Notes under the pieces: model-generated
What the model saw: the letters and a program-made list of their open reading frames with translations, nothing else
Database searches by the model: none
Told to the model about the DNA's origin: nothing
Position numbers and translations under genes: made by a program
Part shown: positions 24,911 to 34,119 of the stretch, in pieces
Layout of the letters: each line of letters starts with the position of its first letter
Numbering within the stretch: the stretch's first letter is position 1
Origin: Alkalimarinus sediminis
GTDB lineage: Bacteria; Pseudomonadota; Gammaproteobacteria; Pseudomonadales; Oleiphilaceae
DNA length: 64,000 nt
Reading direction: 5' to 3'
NCBI RefSeq assembly: GCF_026427595.1
Contig: NZ_CP101527.1
Span: forward strand, 1,187,001-1,251,000

Positions 24911-25456
24911 ATGAAGGCAAAGACGGGTATTTTTGCTGTGGCACTCTTGGTTTTAGGGAGTTTTTTGTCTCAGGTTTCGTCTGCTGCGGATACAGGGAAG
25001 AGTAACCTTGATGCGTTTTCACATAAAAAAGCAAAAGATCAGCTTATGTATTTGATGGCTGTCTCTGCTGACAGAGCTCAAGATAGAATTAAAGACGGGA
25101 TTGTTTTTACCCCTTATGCAGCTGTATTTAAGCCCAACGGTGAAATTAAGTATATAGAATTAGGTGAGAAGCGGTTTGACCAGTCAGTTGCTATTGCGAT
25201 ACTGCACCGTTCATTAAGGGCGTTGGCAGAGGCTAAAAAAATTGCAACGAGTGCCGTGTATTACACTATAGAGGCACAGGCTGAAGATGGGACCAGTAAT
25301 AGGGTGCTGATAGCAGAGTTGGAGCATGCTATGGGGCTTTCTTTAATCAATGCTACACCGTATAAAAATGTTGATGGTAAAGTTTTATTTGGCCAAAGTG
25401 TTGAGCGCAGCCATGAACCAAAAGTTATGTATGATGAGCCACCGAAGGCGGAGTAG
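24911..25456 (+). CDS. small exported protein of unknown function
   Basis: The family is not recognised. The 181-aa product starts with a signal peptide (MKAKTGIFAVALLVLGSFL, cleavage probably after VSSA). The mature part (about 155 aa) has mixed alpha/beta character: helical KKAKDQLMYLMAVSADRAQDRIKDG, a strand region FTPYAAVFKPNGEIKYIELG, helix AIAILHRSLRALAEAKKI, and strands AVYYTIEAQAEDGTSNRVLIAEL. Two strands end in short polar turns, much like small periplasmic alpha/beta-barrel folds, but that is speculative. No cysteine is present in the mature protein. ATG 24911 has AGAGG upstream. It is the first gene of the envelope-protein island and lies 207 bp before the first tandem copy; no shared motif links it to those copies. 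Confidence 0.75.
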   Translation: MKAKTGIFAVALLVLGSFLSQVSSAADTGKSNLDAFSHKKAKDQLMYLMAVSADRAQDRIKDGIVFTPYAAVFKPNGEIKYIELGEKRFDQSVAIAILHRSLRALAEAKKIATSAVYYTIEAQAEDGTSNRVLIAELEHAMGLSLINATPYKNVDGKVLFGQSVERSHEPKVMYDEPPKAE

Positions 25457-25518: not shown

Positions 25519-25561
25519 TGTGAAATAGGTCACGGAAAATTACTATCTGTCATCTTAGACT
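25519..25561 (+). promoter_or_regulatory. CRP/Vfr-type site with class II promoter, tandem copy 1
   Basis: TGTGA-AATAGG-TCACG (25519-25534) is an almost perfect CRP-family palindrome. A -10 element TAGACT begins at 25556. With transcription assumed to start 7 bp after the -10 box, at about 25568, the site is centred at -41.5, the class II activation position. The same spacing is found before copies 2 and 3. Confidence 0.72.
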
Positions 25562-25663: not shown

Positions 25664-26560
25664 ATGAAAGGCTTGAATAAAATTGCTTTAGTAACCGCTA
25701 TATCTGCTGCATCTTTCGGTGCAAACGCTGAGCTTAAATCACTAGACGACAGCGCAATGGGTGAGCTAACGGGTCAAGCGGGTATCACTATCGAGCTTGA
25801 AACCAAAGTAGACATCGGTTCTGTTGTATACACTGATACTGCAAGTGCTGCAGGTTCAACTAACATGATCGGTGGCGGTAGCTTGGCAATGAACGGTATC
25901 TCTATCGGTGGTAGAGGTGGTAGTAAGTTAGACGATCTTCAGATCGATATCGATCTTGCAGACGACGGTGATGCAATCATCGACGTACACTCTCAGTCTG
26001 GTGTTCCGATCGATTTCGGAATTACTATGGCTTCTGCTAGCTTGCAGGGTTCAGGTACTGTTACTGCTGCTAACTCTACTTTGCTTGCATCTAACATCAA
26101 CATCGAAGGTGACCTATACAAGTTAGGAATCCAGGTTGATACAGCAACTGACGTATTGGGTATTACTGCAGCATTTACTGTAACTGACTTTGATGTTGAC
26201 GTTGACTTCTTGTCTTTGGGTATCCAGAACTTAACAATCTCTAGCGATAACTCAAACACTTGTGGTGCGGGTGACGTAGCTTGTCAAACAGCTCAAGGTA
26301 TTTCAGCAGGTATCAACAGCGCGATTGCTACTGGTCCTCTAGCGGGTTCAAGCTACGGAAACGCAGCAGTTGCAATCATGACTGTTGGTAAAGGTGTTTC
26401 AGGTGTAACTGGAAGCACTCAAGAAGGTTTGGCAATGGGCATCGAGTACTTCGAAGCTGATATCGACATGGGCGTTACTTTAGGTGGCGTTTCAATCGGT
26501 ACTGTTGCGATCAACGACCTTGTGATCACGGGTACTGAAATGTTGGTATACGGTCACTAA
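25664..26560 (+). CDS. FilA/DUF6160-like exported protein, tandem copy 1
   Basis: A 298-aa exported protein. Its signal peptide is MKGLNKIALVTAISAASFGANA and the mature N-terminus reads AELKSLDDSAMGELTGQAGI. The TGQAGI block is the hallmark I associate with FilA-type/DUF6160 secreted proteins of gammaproteobacteria; this family call is from memory and function is not established. The rest is Gly/Ala/Ser/Thr-rich with repeated short hydrophobic strands (LDDLQIDIDLADDGDAIIDV, FDVDVDFLSLGIQNLTIS), as expected for a beta-rich surface or filament protein. It has one cysteine pair (CGAGDVAC). Codons are of the high-expression type (ATC, GAC, AAC, GGT). AAGGAG is 11 bp before the ATG, 5 bp farther than in copies 2 and 3. 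The terminator follows at once. Confidence 0.85.
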   Translation: MKGLNKIALVTAISAASFGANAELKSLDDSAMGELTGQAGITIELETKVDIGSVVYTDTASAAGSTNMIGGGSLAMNGISIGGRGGSKLDDLQIDIDLADDGDAIIDVHSQSGVPIDFGITMASASLQGSGTVTAANSTLLASNINIEGDLYKLGIQVDTATDVLGITAAFTVTDFDVDVDFLSLGIQNLTISSDNSNTCGAGDVACQTAQGISAGINSAIATGPLAGSSYGNAAVAIMTVGKGVSGVTGSTQEGLAMGIEYFEADIDMGVTLGGVSIGTVAINDLVITGTEMLVYGH

Positions 26561-26600
26561 GATCGAGTCAACATTTAAGAGCTCACGCTCTTCTAAGAAG

Positions 26601-26626
26601 CCACCCTTTATGGGTGGTTTTTTTTT
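26601..26626 (+). terminator. terminator of tandem copy 1
   Basis: CCACCC/GGGTGG stem with a 5-nt loop and nine T residues. The same element follows copies 2 and 3. Confidence 0.92.
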
Positions 26627-26679
26627 GCCAGCTCATATTTTTTTAAGGCAGTTGGTAGTTCTAAAGTTGTTATTGGCGG

Positions 26680-26763
26680 ATGGTGTAATGGTGTAATGGT
26701 GTAATGGTGTAATGGTGCAGTGATGTAATGGTGCAGTGATGTAATGGTGCAGTGGTGCAGTGT
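26680..26763. repeat. 8-bp minisatellite (TGGTGTAA/TGGTGCAG) after copy 1
   Basis: About ten tandem units of 8-9 bp, with variants TGGTGTAA, TGGTGCAG and TGATGTAA, fill the centre of the 414-bp spacer between copies 1 and 2. The rest of that spacer is the copy-1 terminator and the copy-2 promoter. Minus-strand frames through it give only His/Thr/Pro repeats and are not genes. Confidence 0.9.
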
Positions 26764-26838
26764 TGGGTTAGGGGGGGTAACGTCCATGTTACTGCCAATA
26801 AATATAAAGTATTTGCTTGTTGTGAAAGTGTAACAAGT

Positions 26839-26881
26839 TGTGACTGCATTCACGGAATAATAAAACTGGCCGACCTAGAAT
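26839..26881 (+). promoter_or_regulatory. CRP/Vfr-type site with class II promoter, tandem copy 2
   Basis: TGTGA-CTGCAT-TCACG (26839-26854) is followed 37 bp from its first base by the -10 element TAGAAT (26876-26881). The palindrome and spacing match copy 1 although the six central bases differ, which supports a functional site. A small hairpin CGATAA/TTATCG follows in the leader. Confidence 0.72.
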
Positions 26882-26974
26882 GAACTCACTGATTAGTTAT
26901 GTCGATAAAGCAAATCTGTTATCGCCTGACTCATTAGAAAATAACAAAACAAAAAATCTCTCAAGGAGAATAAA

Positions 26975-27871
26975 ATGAAAGGCCTGAATAAAATTGCTTT
27001 AGTAACCGCTATATCTGCTGCATCTTTCGGTGCAAACGCTGAGCTTAAATCACTAGACGACAGCGCAATGGGTGAGCTAACGGGTCAAGCGGGTATCACT
27101 ATCGAGCTTGAAACCAAAGTAGACATCGGTTCTGTTGTATACACTGATACTGCAAGTGCTGCAGGTTCAACTAACATGATCGGTGGCGGTAGCTTGGCAA
27201 TGAACGGTATCTCTATCGGTGGTAGAGGTGGTAGTAAGTTAGACGATCTTCAGATCGATATCGATCTTGCAGACGACGGTGATGCAATCATCGACGTACA
27301 CTCTCAGTCTGGTGTTCCGATCGATTTCGGAATTACTATGGCTTCTGCTAGCTTGCAGGGTTCAGGTACTGTTACTGCTGCTAACTCTACTTTGCTTGCA
27401 TCTAACATCAACATCGAAGGTGACCTATACAAGTTAGGAATCCAGGTTGATACAGCAACTGACGTATTGGGTATTACTGCAGCATTTACTGTAACTGACT
27501 TTGATGTTGACGTTGACTTCTTGTCTTTGGGTATCCAGAACTTAACAATCTCTAGCGATAACTCAAACACTTGTGGTGCGGGTGACGTAGCTTGTCAAAC
27601 AGCTCAAGGTATTTCAGCAGGTATCAACAGCGAGATTGCTACTGGTCCTCTAGCGGGTTCAAGCTACGGAAACGCAGCAGTTGCAATCATGACTGTTGGT
27701 AAAGGTGTTTCAGGTGTAACTGGAAGCACTCAAGAAGGTTTGGCAATGGGCATCGAGTACTTCGAAGCTGATATCGACATGGGCGTTACTTTAGGTGGCG
27801 TTTCAATCGGTACTGTTGCGATCAACGACCTTGTGATCACGGGTACTGAAATGTTGGTATACGGTCACTAA
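26975..27871 (+). CDS. FilA/DUF6160-like exported protein, tandem copy 2
   Basis: This 298-aa paralogue differs from copy 1 by one residue (INSEIATG instead of INSAIATG). Only about two nucleotide differences were seen over the coding region, so the duplication is very recent or the copies are kept alike by gene conversion. Signal peptide, TGQAGI block, beta-rich body and the single cysteine pair are as in copy 1. AAGGAG lies six bases before the ATG, a better spacing than in copy 1, so translation may be stronger. It has its own activator site, -10 element and terminator, and is therefore an independent transcription unit rather than part of an operon. Function is unknown; a major exported or surface structural protein is the best guess. 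Confidence 0.85.
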   Translation: MKGLNKIALVTAISAASFGANAELKSLDDSAMGELTGQAGITIELETKVDIGSVVYTDTASAAGSTNMIGGGSLAMNGISIGGRGGSKLDDLQIDIDLADDGDAIIDVHSQSGVPIDFGITMASASLQGSGTVTAANSTLLASNINIEGDLYKLGIQVDTATDVLGITAAFTVTDFDVDVDFLSLGIQNLTISSDNSNTCGAGDVACQTAQGISAGINSEIATGPLAGSSYGNAAVAIMTVGKGVSGVTGSTQEGLAMGIEYFEADIDMGVTLGGVSIGTVAINDLVITGTEMLVYGH

Positions 27872-27911
27872 GATCGAGTCAACATTTAAGAGCTCACGCT
27901 CTTCTAAGAAG

Positions 27912-27937
27912 CCACCCTTTATGGGTGGTTTTTTTTT
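27912..27937 (+). terminator. terminator of tandem copy 2
   Basis: Stem and loop identical to the copy 1 terminator (CCACCC/GGGTGG), followed by nine T residues. Confidence 0.92.
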
Positions 27938-28000
27938 GCCATCTCATATTGTTTTTTAAAGCTGTTGGTAGTTCTAAAGTTGTTATTGGCGGATGGGGGC

Positions 28001-28092
28001 GTGGTGTAGTGATGTAGTGGTGTAGTGGTGTAATGGTGTAGTGGTGTAATGGTGTAATGGTGTAATGGTGTAATGGTGTAGTGGTGCAGTGT
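28001..28092. repeat. 8-bp minisatellite (TGGTGTAG/TGGTGTAA) after copy 2
   Basis: About eleven units of the same satellite as after copy 1, but in a different order and slightly longer. The two spacers are otherwise nearly identical, so the satellite is the variable part of the duplicated unit (1311 bp versus 1336 bp from start to start). Confidence 0.9.
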
Positions 28093-28174
28093 TGGGTTAG
28101 GGGGTGAGGAGTGTAACGTCCATGTTACTGCCAATAAATATAAAGTATTTGCTTGTTGTGAAAGTGTAACAAGT

Positions 28175-28217
28175 TGTGACTGCATTCACGGAATAATAAA
28201 ACTGGCCGACCTAGAAT
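28175..28217 (+). promoter_or_regulatory. CRP/Vfr-type site with class II promoter, tandem copy 3
   Basis: TGTGA-CTGCAT-TCACG (28175-28190) and TAGAAT (28212-28217), identical to copy 2 in sequence and spacing. Confidence 0.72.
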
Positions 28218-28310
28218 GAACTCACTGATTAGTTATGTCGATAAAGCAAACCTGCAATCGTCTGACTCATTAGAAAATAACAAAACAAAAAATCTCTCAA
28301 GGAGAATAAA

Positions 28311-29207
28311 ATGAAAGGCCTGAATAAAATTGCTTTAGTAACCGCTATCTCTGCTGCATCTTTCGGTGCAAACGCTGAGCTTAAATCACTAGACGACAGC
28401 GCAATGGGTGAGCTAACGGGTCAAGCGGGTATCACTATCGAGCTTGAAACCAAAGTAGACATCGGTTCTGTTGTATACACTGATACTGCAAGTGCTGCAG
28501 GTTCAACTAACATGATCGGTGGCGGTAGCTTGGCAATGAACGGTATCTCTATCGGTGGTAGAGGTGGTAGTAAGTTAGACGATCTTCAGATCGATATCGA
28601 TCTTGCAGACGACGGTGATGCAATCATCGACGTACACTCTCAGTCTGGTGTTCCGATCGATTTCGGAATTACTATGGCTTCTGCTAGCTTGCAGGGTTCA
28701 GGTACTGTTACTGCTGCTAACTCTACTTTGCTTGCATCTAACATCAACATCGAAGGTGACCTATACAAGTTAGGAATTCAGGTTGATACAGCAACTGACG
28801 TATTGGGTATTACTGCAGCATTTACTGTAACTGACTTTGATGTTGACGTTGACTTCTTGTCTTTGGGTATCCAGAACTTAACAATCTCTAGCGATAACTC
28901 AAACACTTGTGGTGCGGGTGACGCAGCTTGTCAAACAGCTCAAGGTGTTTCAGCAGGTATCAACAGCGCGATTGCTAATGGTCCTCTAGCGGGTTCAAGC
29001 TACGGAAACGCAGCAGTTGCAATCATGACTGTTGGTAAAGGTGTTTCAGGTGTAACTGGAAGCACTCAAGAAGGTTTAGCAATGGGCATCGAGTACTTCG
29101 AAGCTGATATCGACATGGGCGTTACTTTAGGTGGCGTTTCAATCGGTACTGTTGCGATCAACGACCTTGTGATCACGGGTACTGAAATGTTGGTATACGG
29201 TCACTAA
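28311..29207 (+). CDS. FilA/DUF6160-like exported protein, tandem copy 3
   Basis: The third 298-aa copy differs from copy 1 by three residues in one stretch (GDAAC for GDVAC, GVSAG for GISAG, ANGP for ATGP) and by a few silent changes. All variation among copies 1-3 is thus confined to the segment around residues 202-225, next to the only cysteine pair. Signal peptide and the rest of the mature protein are the same. It has its own promoter, AAGGAG at optimal spacing, and a terminator whose stem is extended by two A:T pairs. No minisatellite follows; the downstream sequence is unrelated to the other spacers, so this copy marks the end of the duplicated array. Confidence 0.85.
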   Translation: MKGLNKIALVTAISAASFGANAELKSLDDSAMGELTGQAGITIELETKVDIGSVVYTDTASAAGSTNMIGGGSLAMNGISIGGRGGSKLDDLQIDIDLADDGDAIIDVHSQSGVPIDFGITMASASLQGSGTVTAANSTLLASNINIEGDLYKLGIQVDTATDVLGITAAFTVTDFDVDVDFLSLGIQNLTISSDNSNTCGAGDAACQTAQGVSAGINSAIANGPLAGSSYGNAAVAIMTVGKGVSGVTGSTQEGLAMGIEYFEADIDMGVTLGGVSIGTVAINDLVITGTEMLVYGH

Positions 29208-29245: not shown

Positions 29246-29273
29246 AACCACCCTTTATGGGTGGTTTTTTTTT
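29246..29273 (+). terminator. terminator of tandem copy 3
   Basis: AACCACCC/GGGTGGTT stem with a 5-nt loop followed by a run of T residues. Confidence 0.92.
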
Positions 29274-29443: not shown

Positions 29444-30289
29444 ATGAACGGTCTGAATAAGAAGACCATGGTTGCTCTGAGCATGATGTTGCCAGTAGCG
29501 GCTATGGCTGAGATTCGTCCTATTGATGATCTTGAGTTAGGAGAGGTTACGGGTCAGGCAGGTATCAGCATTGAGCTTGAAACTAAGGTAGATATTGGTG
29601 AAGTGTTGTATACCGATACACCTAGTGTCGCTGGTTCGGCTAATATGATCGGTGGTGGTAGTTTGTCCATGAAAAATGTATCAATCGGAGGGGCTAACAA
29701 AAATAGCTTCCTTGGTATTACTTCATGGGGCGTCACACCTTCCGATAAATTAGACAATATACTCATTAATATTGATTTAGCCTCAGATGGTGATGCAGTT
29801 ATTAATTTGGGTCCTCAAAACTTTGGCGTTATCGACTTTGCTGTTGGTATTGGTTCAGTAGAATTGCAGGGTACGGGTGGAACAACATCATTAATGTCTA
29901 ACTTCAATATGGTTGGCTTGATGGGTGCTGCTTCTTTAATTGTTGATACAGCTGATGATTCGTTAAATGTAGTTGCTTCTTTAGCGATAGATGATCTTGA
30001 TTTTGACTCGGAGTTTTTATCGTTAGGTGTGCGTGATTTGCAGGTTACTGGCACTACCTTTAACCCACTAGCTCCTCAGCAGTTGCGTGCGTTTTTTGAC
30101 GTAGATTTTAAAGTTTATAGCAAGGCGAATACGCGCTCAGCGGGTGGTGAGGCTCTTGCAGTTGACTTTAACCCTATCGAGATGGATGTAAGAATTGGCT
30201 CTATAGAATTAGGTGGAGCATCCATTGGTTCTGTGTTTGTTGATGACTTGGTCATATCGCAAACTCGCATGGAAGTATATGGTCACTAA
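29444..30289 (+). CDS. diverged fourth FilA/DUF6160-like exported protein
   Basis: A 281-aa protein homologous to the three tandem copies but clearly older. It has a signal peptide (MVALSMMLPVAAMA), the mature start AEIRPIDDLELGEVTGQAGI, and conserved blocks SIELETKVDIG, SANMIGGGSL, DGDAVI and the C-terminal RMEVYGH (LVYGH in the others). It has an insertion (about residues 85-100, NKNSFLGITSWGVTP) and lacks the cysteine pair. Codon use is ordinary (GAT, ATT, TTA), unlike the tandem copies, and no TGTGA-N6-TCACG site is found in its 236-bp upstream gap, so it is probably expressed at a lower level under other control. It might be a minor subunit or a chaperone-like partner of the major protein; this is speculation. 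Confidence 0.82.
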   Translation: MNGLNKKTMVALSMMLPVAAMAEIRPIDDLELGEVTGQAGISIELETKVDIGEVLYTDTPSVAGSANMIGGGSLSMKNVSIGGANKNSFLGITSWGVTPSDKLDNILINIDLASDGDAVINLGPQNFGVIDFAVGIGSVELQGTGGTTSLMSNFNMVGLMGAASLIVDTADDSLNVVASLAIDDLDFDSEFLSLGVRDLQVTGTTFNPLAPQQLRAFFDVDFKVYSKANTRSAGGEALAVDFNPIEMDVRIGSIELGGASIGSVFVDDLVISQTRMEVYGH

Positions 30290-30360: not shown

Positions 30361-30550
30361 CATTTTGGGTAGCTTAATTTCTTATTAAAGTTGAACTAAT
30401 AGATATATTCATATCTGTTCTGTTCATAACTGTGACCCATTTTTGGTTTCTATTCTCTCTATCTGGCTTAATGTAATTGAATTAATTATTCTTTACAAAT
30501 AGTTACGTTAACCCCTGTTTTTACGTTTGAAAGATCAATCGGAACCGTTC

Positions 30551-33061
30551 ATGGAATTTATTTCAAGGCTTAAAATACTCCTAATATTTATCTGTGTCTT
30601 AGTATTTCTACAAGGTTGTAGTGAGACAAAAAGTGCTAAGGCTCCTGAGATTCTGGGCACACCTTCTGGGTATGCATTGATAGATGTTTTATATGAATAT
30701 GAGTTTGGTGCTGATGGGGGAGATGGCATACTTAGCTACTCTATTACATCTGGCCCTGATTGGTTAAAAATTGAAAACCTAAATGGCGCTAAGCCTGCCT
30801 TTAGGGTGTATGGTGTGCCGACCGTCGCTGACAGGGACGAATTTAATAATTTCGTTCCCGCTGCTTTTGACTATGACATTACCGTTACAGACGGTACTCT
30901 ATCAACAACGCAAACTTTTACAGTGCAGTTAAGTAAGAACCTATTGGGTTTTCAGGATGGTGGGCTTGTAGCGACAGAGGGTAAGGTGTTTGAAGAGCTT
31001 AACCCTGAAGAGTTTAGTGATGGCTGTGAGCTTCCCAGTATGGCTCCTCGTGAGATTAATGGAAAAACAGCTTATCCCCATCCAGTCATTATGCAGTTGG
31101 GAGCTCCTGCTGAAACAGCTATTAAATTGCATTATGTATTTGAGTCTCAATATGATGAGAACAAAAAAGAACGTGATCCAAGTAACCTAATTAAAGCGAG
31201 GCCAAATGTCGATTTTGATGATCGCGCGGGTGTTTATACAGTGGAGCCCGGAGTCACTCGATGTGCTTTTGCTATCCACTTCTTTGATGACGACATTATC
31301 GAAGGCGAAGAAACCTACAGAATAGTATTTGACGAAATTCTAAGTGGGTGGACAACATACACGGAGCAGGAATTCATACAGATCGAAGATGATGAGCCCG
31401 CGGTAGAGTTTCTGAGTGAAACAACCGTTATGAGCTTTGATGATGAGAGAGAGTACAAGCTTACCTTGTCAGAGCCGGTAGATTACCCACTGAATATCAA
31501 GTTGTTTGTGGACAATGAAAATGCATCAAATATTACAAGTGCTGATTATGATATTACGATAGGCTCGCAGGTATGTGATGCAAATATGGATATTGACTTA
31601 AACGACTGCGTAATTACATTCCCTCCAAATTCTACAGAAGCGTTTTTCAAGTTAAAAGTCAAAGATGACCTCACCGCCACAGATAAAGATGAGATCGTCA
31701 TTGTTAAAACTTATATAGCGCCGATTTTCAATCATCAGCCCGTAAGCGTTACCATTAATGAGTGGGAGAGTGATGTCACCATCGCAGGCACAGGTACGAC
31801 TAACATAGCAGGCGAGATTGCTGTTCAGTCTGACCTAAGTATTATTACAATGCTGCAAAGTACAGGGGCTGATAGCGATGTATCCATTACACTAAGTGGT
31901 CGTGATGGTGCCAGCGGATCATTTTTGAGTGGCGGAGACGCGCTTATTGCGTCGAACGATGCCAAACCTGACTATATAGGTGGTCTTGAATATCGTATTT
32001 TGGGTGACCAATATGTAATTGCAGCCTTAACAACCGAAGGTACGTTCACAGGAGCCGTTAATGCCAATAACAACAATACAAAAGACGTGTTCTTAAGAAT
32101 GTTTACTAGGCCCGAATTTGTTGCGCCTGGAACAGGGTATACCTCGCCGTGGAGTTACCAGTTTGGTACTGACAAAGATGATGTCGTGAATGGAGTCCAC
32201 TTTGATTCTGGTGGAAACGTGTATGTGTTTGGATATACCTACGGGACTTTCCCAACTTCAGGGCATGTTAACCCTAATGGCAAAAAAGATGGCTTTATCG
32301 CAAAAGTGGGTGCTGCAGGTGATTTTCAGTGGGTTCGCTCGATTGGGTCAGCAGGTGATGATGAGATAGTCGACATAGCTATTGTTTCTAGTGTTGTTTA
32401 TGCTGTTGGTACTACCGATGGTGTCTTGAGTGGCTCATCGCAAGGGCTGACGGATGGTTTTATCGTTAAGTACGATAGTTTGGGAACAAAGCAGGATTCT
32501 GTACAGTTTGGCACCGATGAGCATGACAATATTACCGGTGTGTCTGCTTCGTTAAGCGAGTTATGGATTTCTGGCCACAGTAGGGGGGGGGTTAAGGTCT
32601 TAGAGGGGGAGGCAGGTTTTGACAGCTCGGTAACTCCAGCGACTGTGGACCCGTTTCTTCTTAAAACGAACTTAGATGGCCGATTAACCGCTGCTGTTCA
32701 GTTTGGAGATCCTTTGCTTGATGATGTTTCGGTGACGATTGGTGACCTAACTTCTTCGGTTATGATGGGGTCCACTACACCAGGGGAGTTTGAAGTTGGA
32801 AAAAATCTTGGTGGTAGTGACGCAGTCTTAACAAGCGTTAAGACTATCAATGTTGATAGTGCTGACTTATGGCATAAGCAGTTTGGTACTTCAGCTGATG
32901 ATGAGTTTATCGATGTGTCATTATTTGGCAACCGTAAGAGAATGGTTCTATGGAAAACGACCGCTTTGGGCTCTGGACAAGAGACGTATAAGTTAACACC
33001 TTTCTCTAACGAAGGGGCGCAACTTACAATTCCGAATGACTTGCCCGCAGAATCTCCGTAG
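30551..33061 (+). CDS. large outer-membrane lipoprotein with Calx-beta-like and SBBP-type repeats
   Basis: An 836-aa secreted lipoprotein. The signal ends in a good lipobox (FLQGC, Cys23) with Ser at +2, so outer-membrane sorting is expected. An Ig-like/putative He-PIG domain follows at about 35-130 (GILSYSITSGPDWLKI). Calx-beta-like segments follow (TRCAFAIHFFDDDIIEGEETYRIVF and EYKLTLSEPVDYPLNI). The C-terminal half (about 533-805) has beta-propeller repeats of the SBBP kind with the recurring core QFGT..DD. The frame opens with TTG at 30527, but ATG 30551 has GGAA upstream and starts the signal peptide. A run of nine G residues lies in the coding sequence near codon 678. A role in adhesion or matrix binding is plausible; function is unknown. 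Confidence 0.8.
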   Translation: MEFISRLKILLIFICVLVFLQGCSETKSAKAPEILGTPSGYALIDVLYEYEFGADGGDGILSYSITSGPDWLKIENLNGAKPAFRVYGVPTVADRDEFNNFVPAAFDYDITVTDGTLSTTQTFTVQLSKNLLGFQDGGLVATEGKVFEELNPEEFSDGCELPSMAPREINGKTAYPHPVIMQLGAPAETAIKLHYVFESQYDENKKERDPSNLIKARPNVDFDDRAGVYTVEPGVTRCAFAIHFFDDDIIEGEETYRIVFDEILSGWTTYTEQEFIQIEDDEPAVEFLSETTVMSFDDEREYKLTLSEPVDYPLNIKLFVDNENASNITSADYDITIGSQVCDANMDIDLNDCVITFPPNSTEAFFKLKVKDDLTATDKDEIVIVKTYIAPIFNHQPVSVTINEWESDVTIAGTGTTNIAGEIAVQSDLSIITMLQSTGADSDVSITLSGRDGASGSFLSGGDALIASNDAKPDYIGGLEYRILGDQYVIAALTTEGTFTGAVNANNNNTKDVFLRMFTRPEFVAPGTGYTSPWSYQFGTDKDDVVNGVHFDSGGNVYVFGYTYGTFPTSGHVNPNGKKDGFIAKVGAAGDFQWVRSIGSAGDDEIVDIAIVSSVVYAVGTTDGVLSGSSQGLTDGFIVKYDSLGTKQDSVQFGTDEHDNITGVSASLSELWISGHSRGGVKVLEGEAGFDSSVTPATVDPFLLKTNLDGRLTAAVQFGDPLLDDVSVTIGDLTSSVMMGSTTPGEFEVGKNLGGSDAVLTSVKTINVDSADLWHKQFGTSADDEFIDVSLFGNRKRMVLWKTTALGSGQETYKLTPFSNEGAQLTIPNDLPAESP

Positions 33062-33456: not shown

Positions 33457-34119
33457 TTAATTCTTCGGTATATCAATCGTCAAATCAAAACCACCACCTT
33501 GTCTTGGAACTAATAATACAGGCCCTTCGTTAATCCCCTGCGGCATATTGATAGTGTTGACACCGGGTAAGTTACCGAAAGAGAAGGTAAGTTGGTCTTC
33601 TGTTCTGCTTAGCCCTAAATCGTTTCCGACAGGGGCATAAACAAAGTTATTATTGATATCTATAAAATCTATTTCTGGTGCTGTTCCATAAGGTACATCT
33701 ACATCAGGTACTTTGGGTCTAAGTGCGTCAATTTCAGGCCCAGTTGTTGAGAATGCCAACTCTCTCAGCTGCTCTTCAACATTTAGGATTGCGCCTTGTG
33801 TTTGTGCATCAGTCTCCTCGACAGATTGAGCAAACTCAAGATGCTCTTCCTCTTCTGTTTTGACTGGCTCAGCGGGCGAGATGGTAATGCTACCTAGCTT
33901 TTTCTTTTGTGCTTCTTCTTTCTTTTTCTTAGGGGTTACTATAATGGTAGAGTCTTTTATATATGTTTCGGTGAGCTCTGAGCTGGTAAGGGATTTTACA
34001 TCTGCAGATACACTGGAAGATAATAAAGCGGCTAGAACTGAAGCACCCAAAACAGCACTGCCTCCAACAAAAGCACTTGGTGTTGCTTGAGTAATGGTTG
34101 ATGTTGTTTTGTTTTTCAT
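33457..34119 (-). CDS. exported protein with FilA-like mature N-terminus, otherwise unknown
   Basis: A 220-aa protein whose family is not recognised. The signal region is long (GGSAVLGASVLAALLSSSVSA), with cleavage predicted before ADVKSL. The first mature residues, ADVKSLTSSELTETYI, echo the AELKSLDDSAMGELTG start of the neighbouring tandem proteins, but the TGQAGI block is replaced by a Lys-rich stretch (PKKKKEEAQKKK). A Glu-rich segment follows (EEEEHLEFAQSVEE), then a Pro/Asp-rich part and a beta-like C-terminus (FDLTIDIPKN). No cysteine is present. It faces the lipoprotein gene. By position and N-terminus it probably belongs to the same envelope system, perhaps as an accessory or processing partner. 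This is inference from the motif and location only. Confidence 0.7.
   Translation of the reverse strand: MKNKTTSTITQATPSAFVGGSAVLGASVLAALLSSSVSADVKSLTSSELTETYIKDSTIIVTPKKKKEEAQKKKLGSITISPAEPVKTEEEEHLEFAQSVEETDAQTQGAILNVEEQLRELAFSTTGPEIDALRPKVPDVDVPYGTAPEIDFIDINNNFVYAPVGNDLGLSRTEDQLTFSFGNLPGVNTINMPQGINEGPVLLVPRQGGGFDLTIDIPKN

Follow-up and report, generated by a model that had tools for sequence, protein, structure and literature searches.

The Fil pilus of Acinetobacter (FilA-FilF) is the closest described relative of the system considered here. Curved filaments of A. baumannii were assigned by mass spectrometry to the protein annotated as FilA, in the portion of PMC10980823 that deals with them, and FilA is called the Fil pilus subunit in a passage of PMC11784438. 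In Pseudomonas, the Fap amyloid system (FapD, FapF) exports its subunits with a C39 peptidase and an outer-membrane pore. FapD is described in a section of PMC5557850 as periplasmic, with a catalytic cysteine that is required for secretion, and the target of this peptidase is called unclear in passages of both that article and PMC6173800. Here we report on a 64,000-nucleotide stretch of the Alkalimarinus sediminis genome (contig NZ_CP101527.1, positions 1,187,001 to 1,251,000; hereafter the window, in whose coordinates features are given), which carries three nearly identical tandem copies of a DUF6160/FilA-like gene (A1, A2 and A3), followed by a divergent fourth DUF6160 gene (B). We think it probable that A is the major and B a minor subunit of a Fil-type fibre, with a leader processed by FilB, export through FilC and A expression from Vfr/CRP class II promoters. 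Earlier work already covers the Fil pilus, DUF6160 and the C39 peptidases. What is new is the leader as a candidate class signal tied to FilB, the location of the subunit genes apart from filBCD in this family, and an array that gene conversion appears to maintain. We found no paper in the open-access literature linking the DUF6160 leader with FilB.

The A genes are open reading frames (ORFs) of 298 amino acids (aa) on the forward strand, at 25664..26560 (A1), 26975..27871 (A2) and 28311..29207 (A3), as the original prediction had it. Their coding sequences are 897 nt long and vary at 8 nucleotide sites overall. A2 differs from A1 in 2 nt and 1 residue, while A3 lies 7 nt from either copy, with 3 residues changed relative to A1 and 4 relative to A2. 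Hence the predicted range of 1-3 residues holds for the two comparisons with A1 and is slightly exceeded by A2/A3. Gene B (29444..30289, +) encodes 281 aa. A1 was defined by its ORF, Pfam and NCBIfam searches and codon usage, A2 and A3 by ORF and pairwise comparison, and B by ORF, Pfam and codon usage. DUF6160 (PF19657) matched A1 and A3 with 98.8 bits and B with 86.2, the Pfam gathering threshold being 27. A type IV or chaperone-usher pilin was considered and rejected, with no such match in Pfam or NCBIfam. Note that gene B, the divergence upstream of A1, the leader motif, filBCD, the Vfr-type promoters and the family-wide pattern, all described below, were absent from the original prediction.

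The feature that connects A and B to a peptidase is a leader of 16 residues. In A1 it reads ELKSLDDSAMGELTGQ (25730..25777, +), stands directly past the predicted Sec signal (residues 1-22) and is proposed to be a tag for FilB recognition and cleavage, with the body starting at 25778. The leaders of A2 (27041..27088, +) and A3 (28377..28424, +) are identical to it, and that of B is EIRPIDDLELGEVTGQ (29510..29557, +). The pattern is [AE]-L-x-x-L-x-D-x-x-[LM]-x-x-V-x-G-Q, and its final GQ is present in 57/58 DUF6160 ORFs, the exception being a truncated fragment. Moreover, all 12 distinct members in the A. sediminis genome have [LIM]-x-x-x-x-[LM]-x-x-x-x-G-[QA] four residues past the predicted signal peptide, ending in GQ in 11 and in GA in one. 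FilA-type genes of other families, at eight other loci, also carry this leader in an identical position (17 ORF records, in which some genes occur twice).

Double-glycine leaders have hydrophobic residues at -12, -7 and -4 and Gly at -2, and column counts over 57 DUF6160 ORFs and the 12 leaders of the A. sediminis genome agree with this register. The likeness to double-glycine/C39 systems covers the spacing and the presence of a C39 peptidase to which the leader is linked genomically. There are three differences: a Sec signal precedes the leader, which would therefore be read in the periplasm; position -1 is Gln (11/12) or Ala (one); and the cargo is a large protein. The Nap island of Neisseria, as outlined in part of PMC11798529, similarly combines GG peptides with the C39 peptidase NapP and the FapF-like channel NapF, but its products are small cationic peptides tied to autolysis and not fibre-type subunits as here.

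The leader extends to proteins other than A and B. Among ten further leader-bearing proteins scanned, eight match DUF6160, seven of them barely beyond the leader; proteins of 807 aa and 313 aa match further, and one protein gave no match. A BLAST comparison of the bodies left several groups mutually without detectable similarity. We built a leader model from 12 leaders of the A. sediminis genome (G000), so that its 14 matches there are by construction; in four other FilB-positive genomes it found 19, 16, 9 and 3 matches, and in five FilB-negative genomes, four of which have FapD-like peptidases, it found none. These results raise the idea that L-x-D-x-x-[LM]-x-x-V-x-G-[Q/A] behind a Sec signal could be a portable sorting leader that FilB-type C39 peptidases read in the periplasm, a counterpart of the FapD recognition sequence. 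It would define a secretion class of about 3-19 clients per genome, whose bodies look unrelated and among which the amplified pilus subunit would simply be the most abundant. We regard this wider proposal as evenly balanced between right and wrong.

Elsewhere in the same genome, L051:7863-13340 and L052:8842-11592 are further clusters, whose exported proteins (four and three, respectively) carry the leader but for the most part do not otherwise resemble A and B. A separate Fap-like locus is found at L133:7641-12117 (about 1415.6-1420.1 kb), with FapF-like (151 bits) and FapD-like (145 bits) genes, a repeat protein of 394 aa in which Asp, Asn and Ser are frequent, and a pair of small exported proteins whose motifs resemble the leader (LTRSQLDQQRGG and LVSDQELESHRGR).

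The candidate machinery lies 0.48 Mb from the array, where three adjacent genes (L132), taken as a filBCD operon, have FilB, FilC and FilD as their best NCBIfam matches. Second-best were FapD for FilB (120.5 bits, cut-off 330) and FapF for FilC (70.1 bits, cut-off 700), both missing the Fap cut-offs. A fourth adjoining gene matched MalM and DUF4124 in Pfam and nothing in NCBIfam. In support of the assignment, FilC resembles the solved FapF structure 5o67 (E 6.6e-14) and FilB resembles C39 double-glycine proteases (E 5.5e-7). Such a gene triplet was present in 12/12 genomes searched, all of which had been chosen as DUF6160-positive. The locus shares with the Fil pilus a DUF6160/FilA-type subunit, the leader and homologues of FilB, FilC and FilD. 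It differs in that the subunit genes are tandemly amplified, stand apart from filBCD and have their own Vfr/CRP-type promoters, and in scores below the cut-offs, and no FilF was found in the family genomes searched. With Fap it shares subunit export by means of a C39 peptidase and an outer-membrane pore related to FapF, but FapC-type NQQ repeats are lacking, the machinery is nearer to the Fil models and a FadL-type protein, FilD, is added.

DUF6160 and FilB also occur together across genomes. Among the matches listed for 293 genomes of the order, each was found in 38, both in 37 and neither in 254 (Fisher 1e-44, a value that overstates the certainty, since members of one family are not independent observations). 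The thresholds were E 1e-5 for DUF6160 and at least 160 bits for FilB, the latter chosen once the scores were seen to leave a gap from 161 down to 126; 15 further genomes at 80-126 bits were counted as FapD-like, one of which, G177, is a fragment, and some of the matches were counted by eye. The two discordant genomes are G038 (75% complete; DUF6160 only) and G093 (89% complete; FilB only). The 37 genomes with both span 8 families, and in 21 of them a DUF6160 match lies within 3 kb of filB, against 0/11 in this family (among the matches listed). Moreover, G015 and G178, close relatives of positive genomes in this family, are without both DUF6160 and FilB. This joint presence and absence speaks against the view that DUF6160 proteins are envelope proteins that form no fibre and are linked to FilB by shared ancestry alone. 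Such a view could appeal to the fact that the leader is carried by bodies without detectable similarity to A. However, the curved FilA filaments of A. baumannii, as given in the portion of PMC10980823 mentioned above, and a pilus structure among the relatives, to which we now turn, also argue against it, and we consider it improbable.

That structure was found with profiles. A profile of 9 DUF6160 proteins had one match in the PDB, 9xfv_A (E 0.0021), and with 43 proteins this was again the only match (E 5.8e-7). The chain has 173 residues and belongs to a deposit of 25 chains named "bacteria pilus (like)". Its residue 2 aligns to the Gly that follows GQA (position 40), and its last residue to the C-terminal His. 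The start of the chain thus appears to fall directly behind GQ, at the cut predicted from the leader. In the open-access literature, a scope that omits subscription journals and preprints, no paper naming 9XFV was found, and DUF6160 is named in one.

Promoter structure and codon usage distinguish the A genes. Each copy is preceded by a CRP/Vfr-type site, TGTGA-N6-TCACG (the shuffles made for these sites were mononucleotide), and a -10-like hexamer stands downstream of it at a distance of exactly 21 nt: TGTGAAATAGGTCACG at 25519..25534 (+) with TAGACT at 25556-25561 for A1, and TGTGACTGCATTCACG at 26839..26854 (+) and at 28175..28190 (+), with TAGAAT at 26876-26881 and 28212-28217, for A2 and A3. 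The last base is G, as opposed to A in TGTGA-N6-TCACA. Class II CRP promoters have their site centred at -41.5, and a spacing of 21 nt gives precisely this geometry. An exact TGTGA-N6-TCAC near the start is present in 18/41 DUF6160 genes and in 7/534 other ORFs of the same loci (Fisher 1.3e-17; ORFs overlapping a longer one were dropped, including the A gene of L066), and TAnnnT follows at 20-22 nt in 15 of the 18, 4.3% being expected. As for the promoter foreseen for each copy, a generic scan for sigma-70 promoters gave none at these places, but every copy has the CRP/Vfr-type site with its -10-like hexamer. The genome encodes a 213-aa Vfr homologue, whose best PDB match is Vfr itself (7ff8, E 1.5e-108). 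The best reading of these motifs is that the A genes are under Vfr/CRP class II promoters, to which Vfr would bind. Coregulation of filB and A through the CRP-type site was considered separately and rejected, there being no good site before filB in 9 family genomes scanned.

The codon usage of A1-A3 is like that of ribosomal proteins (0.715-0.717; ranks 6, 9 and 10 of 161 ORFs, a set that holds a few genes twice because of overlapping fetches). B reaches 0.645 (rank 32 of 161) and FilB, FilC and FilD 0.59-0.61, the median being 0.58. This order suggests that A is the abundant subunit, with B and the machinery scarcer. The original prediction of a dosage-amplified major exported protein is supported as to export, and high expression is plausible from codon usage.

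Several results weigh against the assignment of A and B to a Fil-type fibre. FilA itself (NF050077) spans A1 end to end with 35.6 bits, and B scores 51.1, against a cut-off of 220 that a single one of the 293 genomes of the order passes. A is therefore a FilA relative and not FilA by the model, and the predicted FilA/DUF6160 identity is upheld for its second half. The machinery falls short as well, at 270.6 bits for FilB (cut-off 475), 344.8 for FilC (630) and 488.3 for FilD (970). No FilF was detected in 8/8 family genomes at E 0.01, with weak matches in 2/3 outgroup genomes. The NQQ repeat of FapC occurs 0 times in A and 0 times in B. As regards structure, 9xfv was not found in single-sequence PDB searches with two FilA relatives, and the deposit may simply lack unresolved residues before the apparent start of the chain. 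AlphaFold gave a confidence (pLDDT) of 39.5 for A1 with 9 sequences and of 53.0 for the B body without leader, and Foldseek returned no PDB match at E 0.001, for which reason no fold is claimed. B-type genes have no CRP-type site, and upstream of filB in 9 family genomes scanned (G029 left out) the best CRP-type site agreed at 8 of 10 positions. Finally, C39 substrates usually carry Gly, Ala or Ser at -1, and this position is Gln in 57/57 DUF6160 ORFs and in 11/12 leaders of the A. sediminis genome.

This Gln would be accommodated if FilB, acting as a chaperone or gate, docked on the leader without cutting it, or if another protease removed the leader, the fibre model otherwise standing; some C39 domains are indeed purely chaperones, as stated in part of PMC6173800. 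We hold this to be unlikely, although less so than the envelope-protein view. All of the aligned C39 proteins (12/12) retain Gln, Cys, His and Asp, the homologous FapD needs its catalytic cysteine for secretion (in the section of PMC5557850 cited above) and the start of the 9xfv chain seems to coincide with the predicted cut. In the fibre model that we favour, the precursor would pass through the inner membrane via Sec and the signal peptide would be removed, leaving the 16-residue leader. The C39 peptidase FilB would then recognise the leader, probably cutting after GQ. The body would exit via the FapF-like pore FilC, with the help of FilD, and would polymerise, A being the major subunit and B a minor one.

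The array also bears on how such genes evolve. The genome consists of a single contig (4,226,946 bp). Near-identical repeats are classically error-prone, but a simple assembly artefact is very improbable here, because the contig is single, the copies differ, both spacer lengths differ and tandem arrays occupy the same locus in two other single-contig genomes. Gene order is A-A-A-B here and A-B-A-B in those two genomes (G001 and G002), compared with A-B in the draft genome G003 and A only in a Marinobacter. Within genomes, the A genes are identical (0/1104 nt differ in G001 and 0/1101 in G002) and the B genes nearly so (1/816 and 3/819), while between G001 and G002 identity drops to 83.5% for A and about 78.6% for B. 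The upstream regions of each A pair, however, match at only 161/187 positions in G001 and 134/169 in G002, and are about as far apart as these species themselves.

The same contrast is seen in the window. A1 and A2 are 2/897 nt apart in coding sequence, yet upstream of A1 only 119/197 aligned positions (about 60%) agree with the A1-A2 spacer. The A2 and A3 units, on the other hand, are 95-99% identical with their spacers included, and the single A upstream region of G003 is nearer to those of A2 and A3 (107 and 108 of 155) than to that of A1 (92/164). The likeness of the A2 and A3 units is what would remain if unequal crossing-over had simply duplicated the genes in tandem in recent times and gene conversion had played no part. 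As an account of the whole array we find this improbable, in view of the uniform coding sequences behind diverged upstream regions in this genome and in G001 and G002 alike. The pattern indicates that the array was shaped by gene conversion of the A coding sequences plus further unequal crossing-over for the A2/A3 units. The predicted recent recombination is hence supported, but unequal crossing-over alone does not suffice. In this model, gene conversion would keep the A array uniform and unequal crossing-over would alter the copy number. Diverged DUF6160-type tandem arrays were also seen elsewhere, at L058 and L059 (both G014), L060 (G013) and L089 (G070), so tandem duplication recurs in the DUF6160 family.

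The few residues that vary among the copies (205, 213, 220 and 223) all fall within codons 191-230 (26234..26353 in A1, +), which comparison of the copies and an alignment of 17 relatives mark as hypervariable and indel-rich throughout the family. In those relatives, residues 191-230 have an identity of 6-14% per ten-residue block, making this the least conserved part of A, and residues 201-230 are a gap in about 0.55-0.62 of them. By chance, 4 specified sites would all lie within a span of 55 nt with a probability of 0.0007, and any 4 of the 8 variable sites with one of 0.042. The variable residues do lie beside the sole cysteine pair of A (residues 200 and 207), as first noticed; among the sequences aligned, the pair is common only to the nearest relative, G003. 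The suggestion of an antigenic loop found no support, and the bacterium appears to be marine and free-living.

As regards the intergenic regions, the A1-A2 and A2-A3 spacers match at 396/414 aligned positions, with 25 more gapped, in agreement with the predicted near-identity. Many of the differences fall within or close to an 8-bp tandem repeat that lies, in each spacer, upstream of the promoter (ATGGTGTA at 26680..26757, +, for A2, and GTGGTGTA at 28001..28091, +, for A3); the two repeats are unequal in length and composition, and their repeat number could change. Folding placed a terminator-like hairpin 3' of every A copy (z about -6), with cores at 26601..26617, 27912..27928 and 29248..29264 (all +), which fits the terminator foreseen for each copy.

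The ORF at 30527..33061 (+) encodes 844 aa, is lipoprotein-like and matches SBBP and Calx-beta weakly in Pfam and NCBIfam. It adjoins the A/B array in all four same-genus genomes displayed (G001, G002 and G003 included) and, speculatively, might be the anchor or tip of the fibre. A 181-aa exported ORF without family match (24911-25456) precedes A1; an ORF of similar size takes its place in G001, G002 and G003, and none is listed in the Marinobacter locus L047. A 220-aa exported ORF, again without family match (33457-34119, -), has homologues in 13/13 fetched loci, Marinobacter included. Four flanking proteins of the window, which we take to be pabB-like, the 220-aa ORF, DUF58-like and transglutaminase-like, have homologues in 13/13 fetched relative loci with an A-type gene, which makes the locus a conserved one. 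A viral or phage origin was considered and rejected, a scan of viral contigs having yielded no relative, as was a defence system, three proteins tried having no PADLOC match.

For the organism, the extra A copies would raise the dosage of an abundant subunit, and this dosage may be the selected trait. The array is a clean bacterial example of concerted evolution, with coding sequences uniform within a genome while promoters and sister species diverge. For the family, the fibre model would give DUF6160 a function, and the leader would serve as a marker for listing the clients in a genome. Moreover, the pairing of FilB with this leader turns the question of what a C39 peptidase of this type recognises into an experiment with one peptide.

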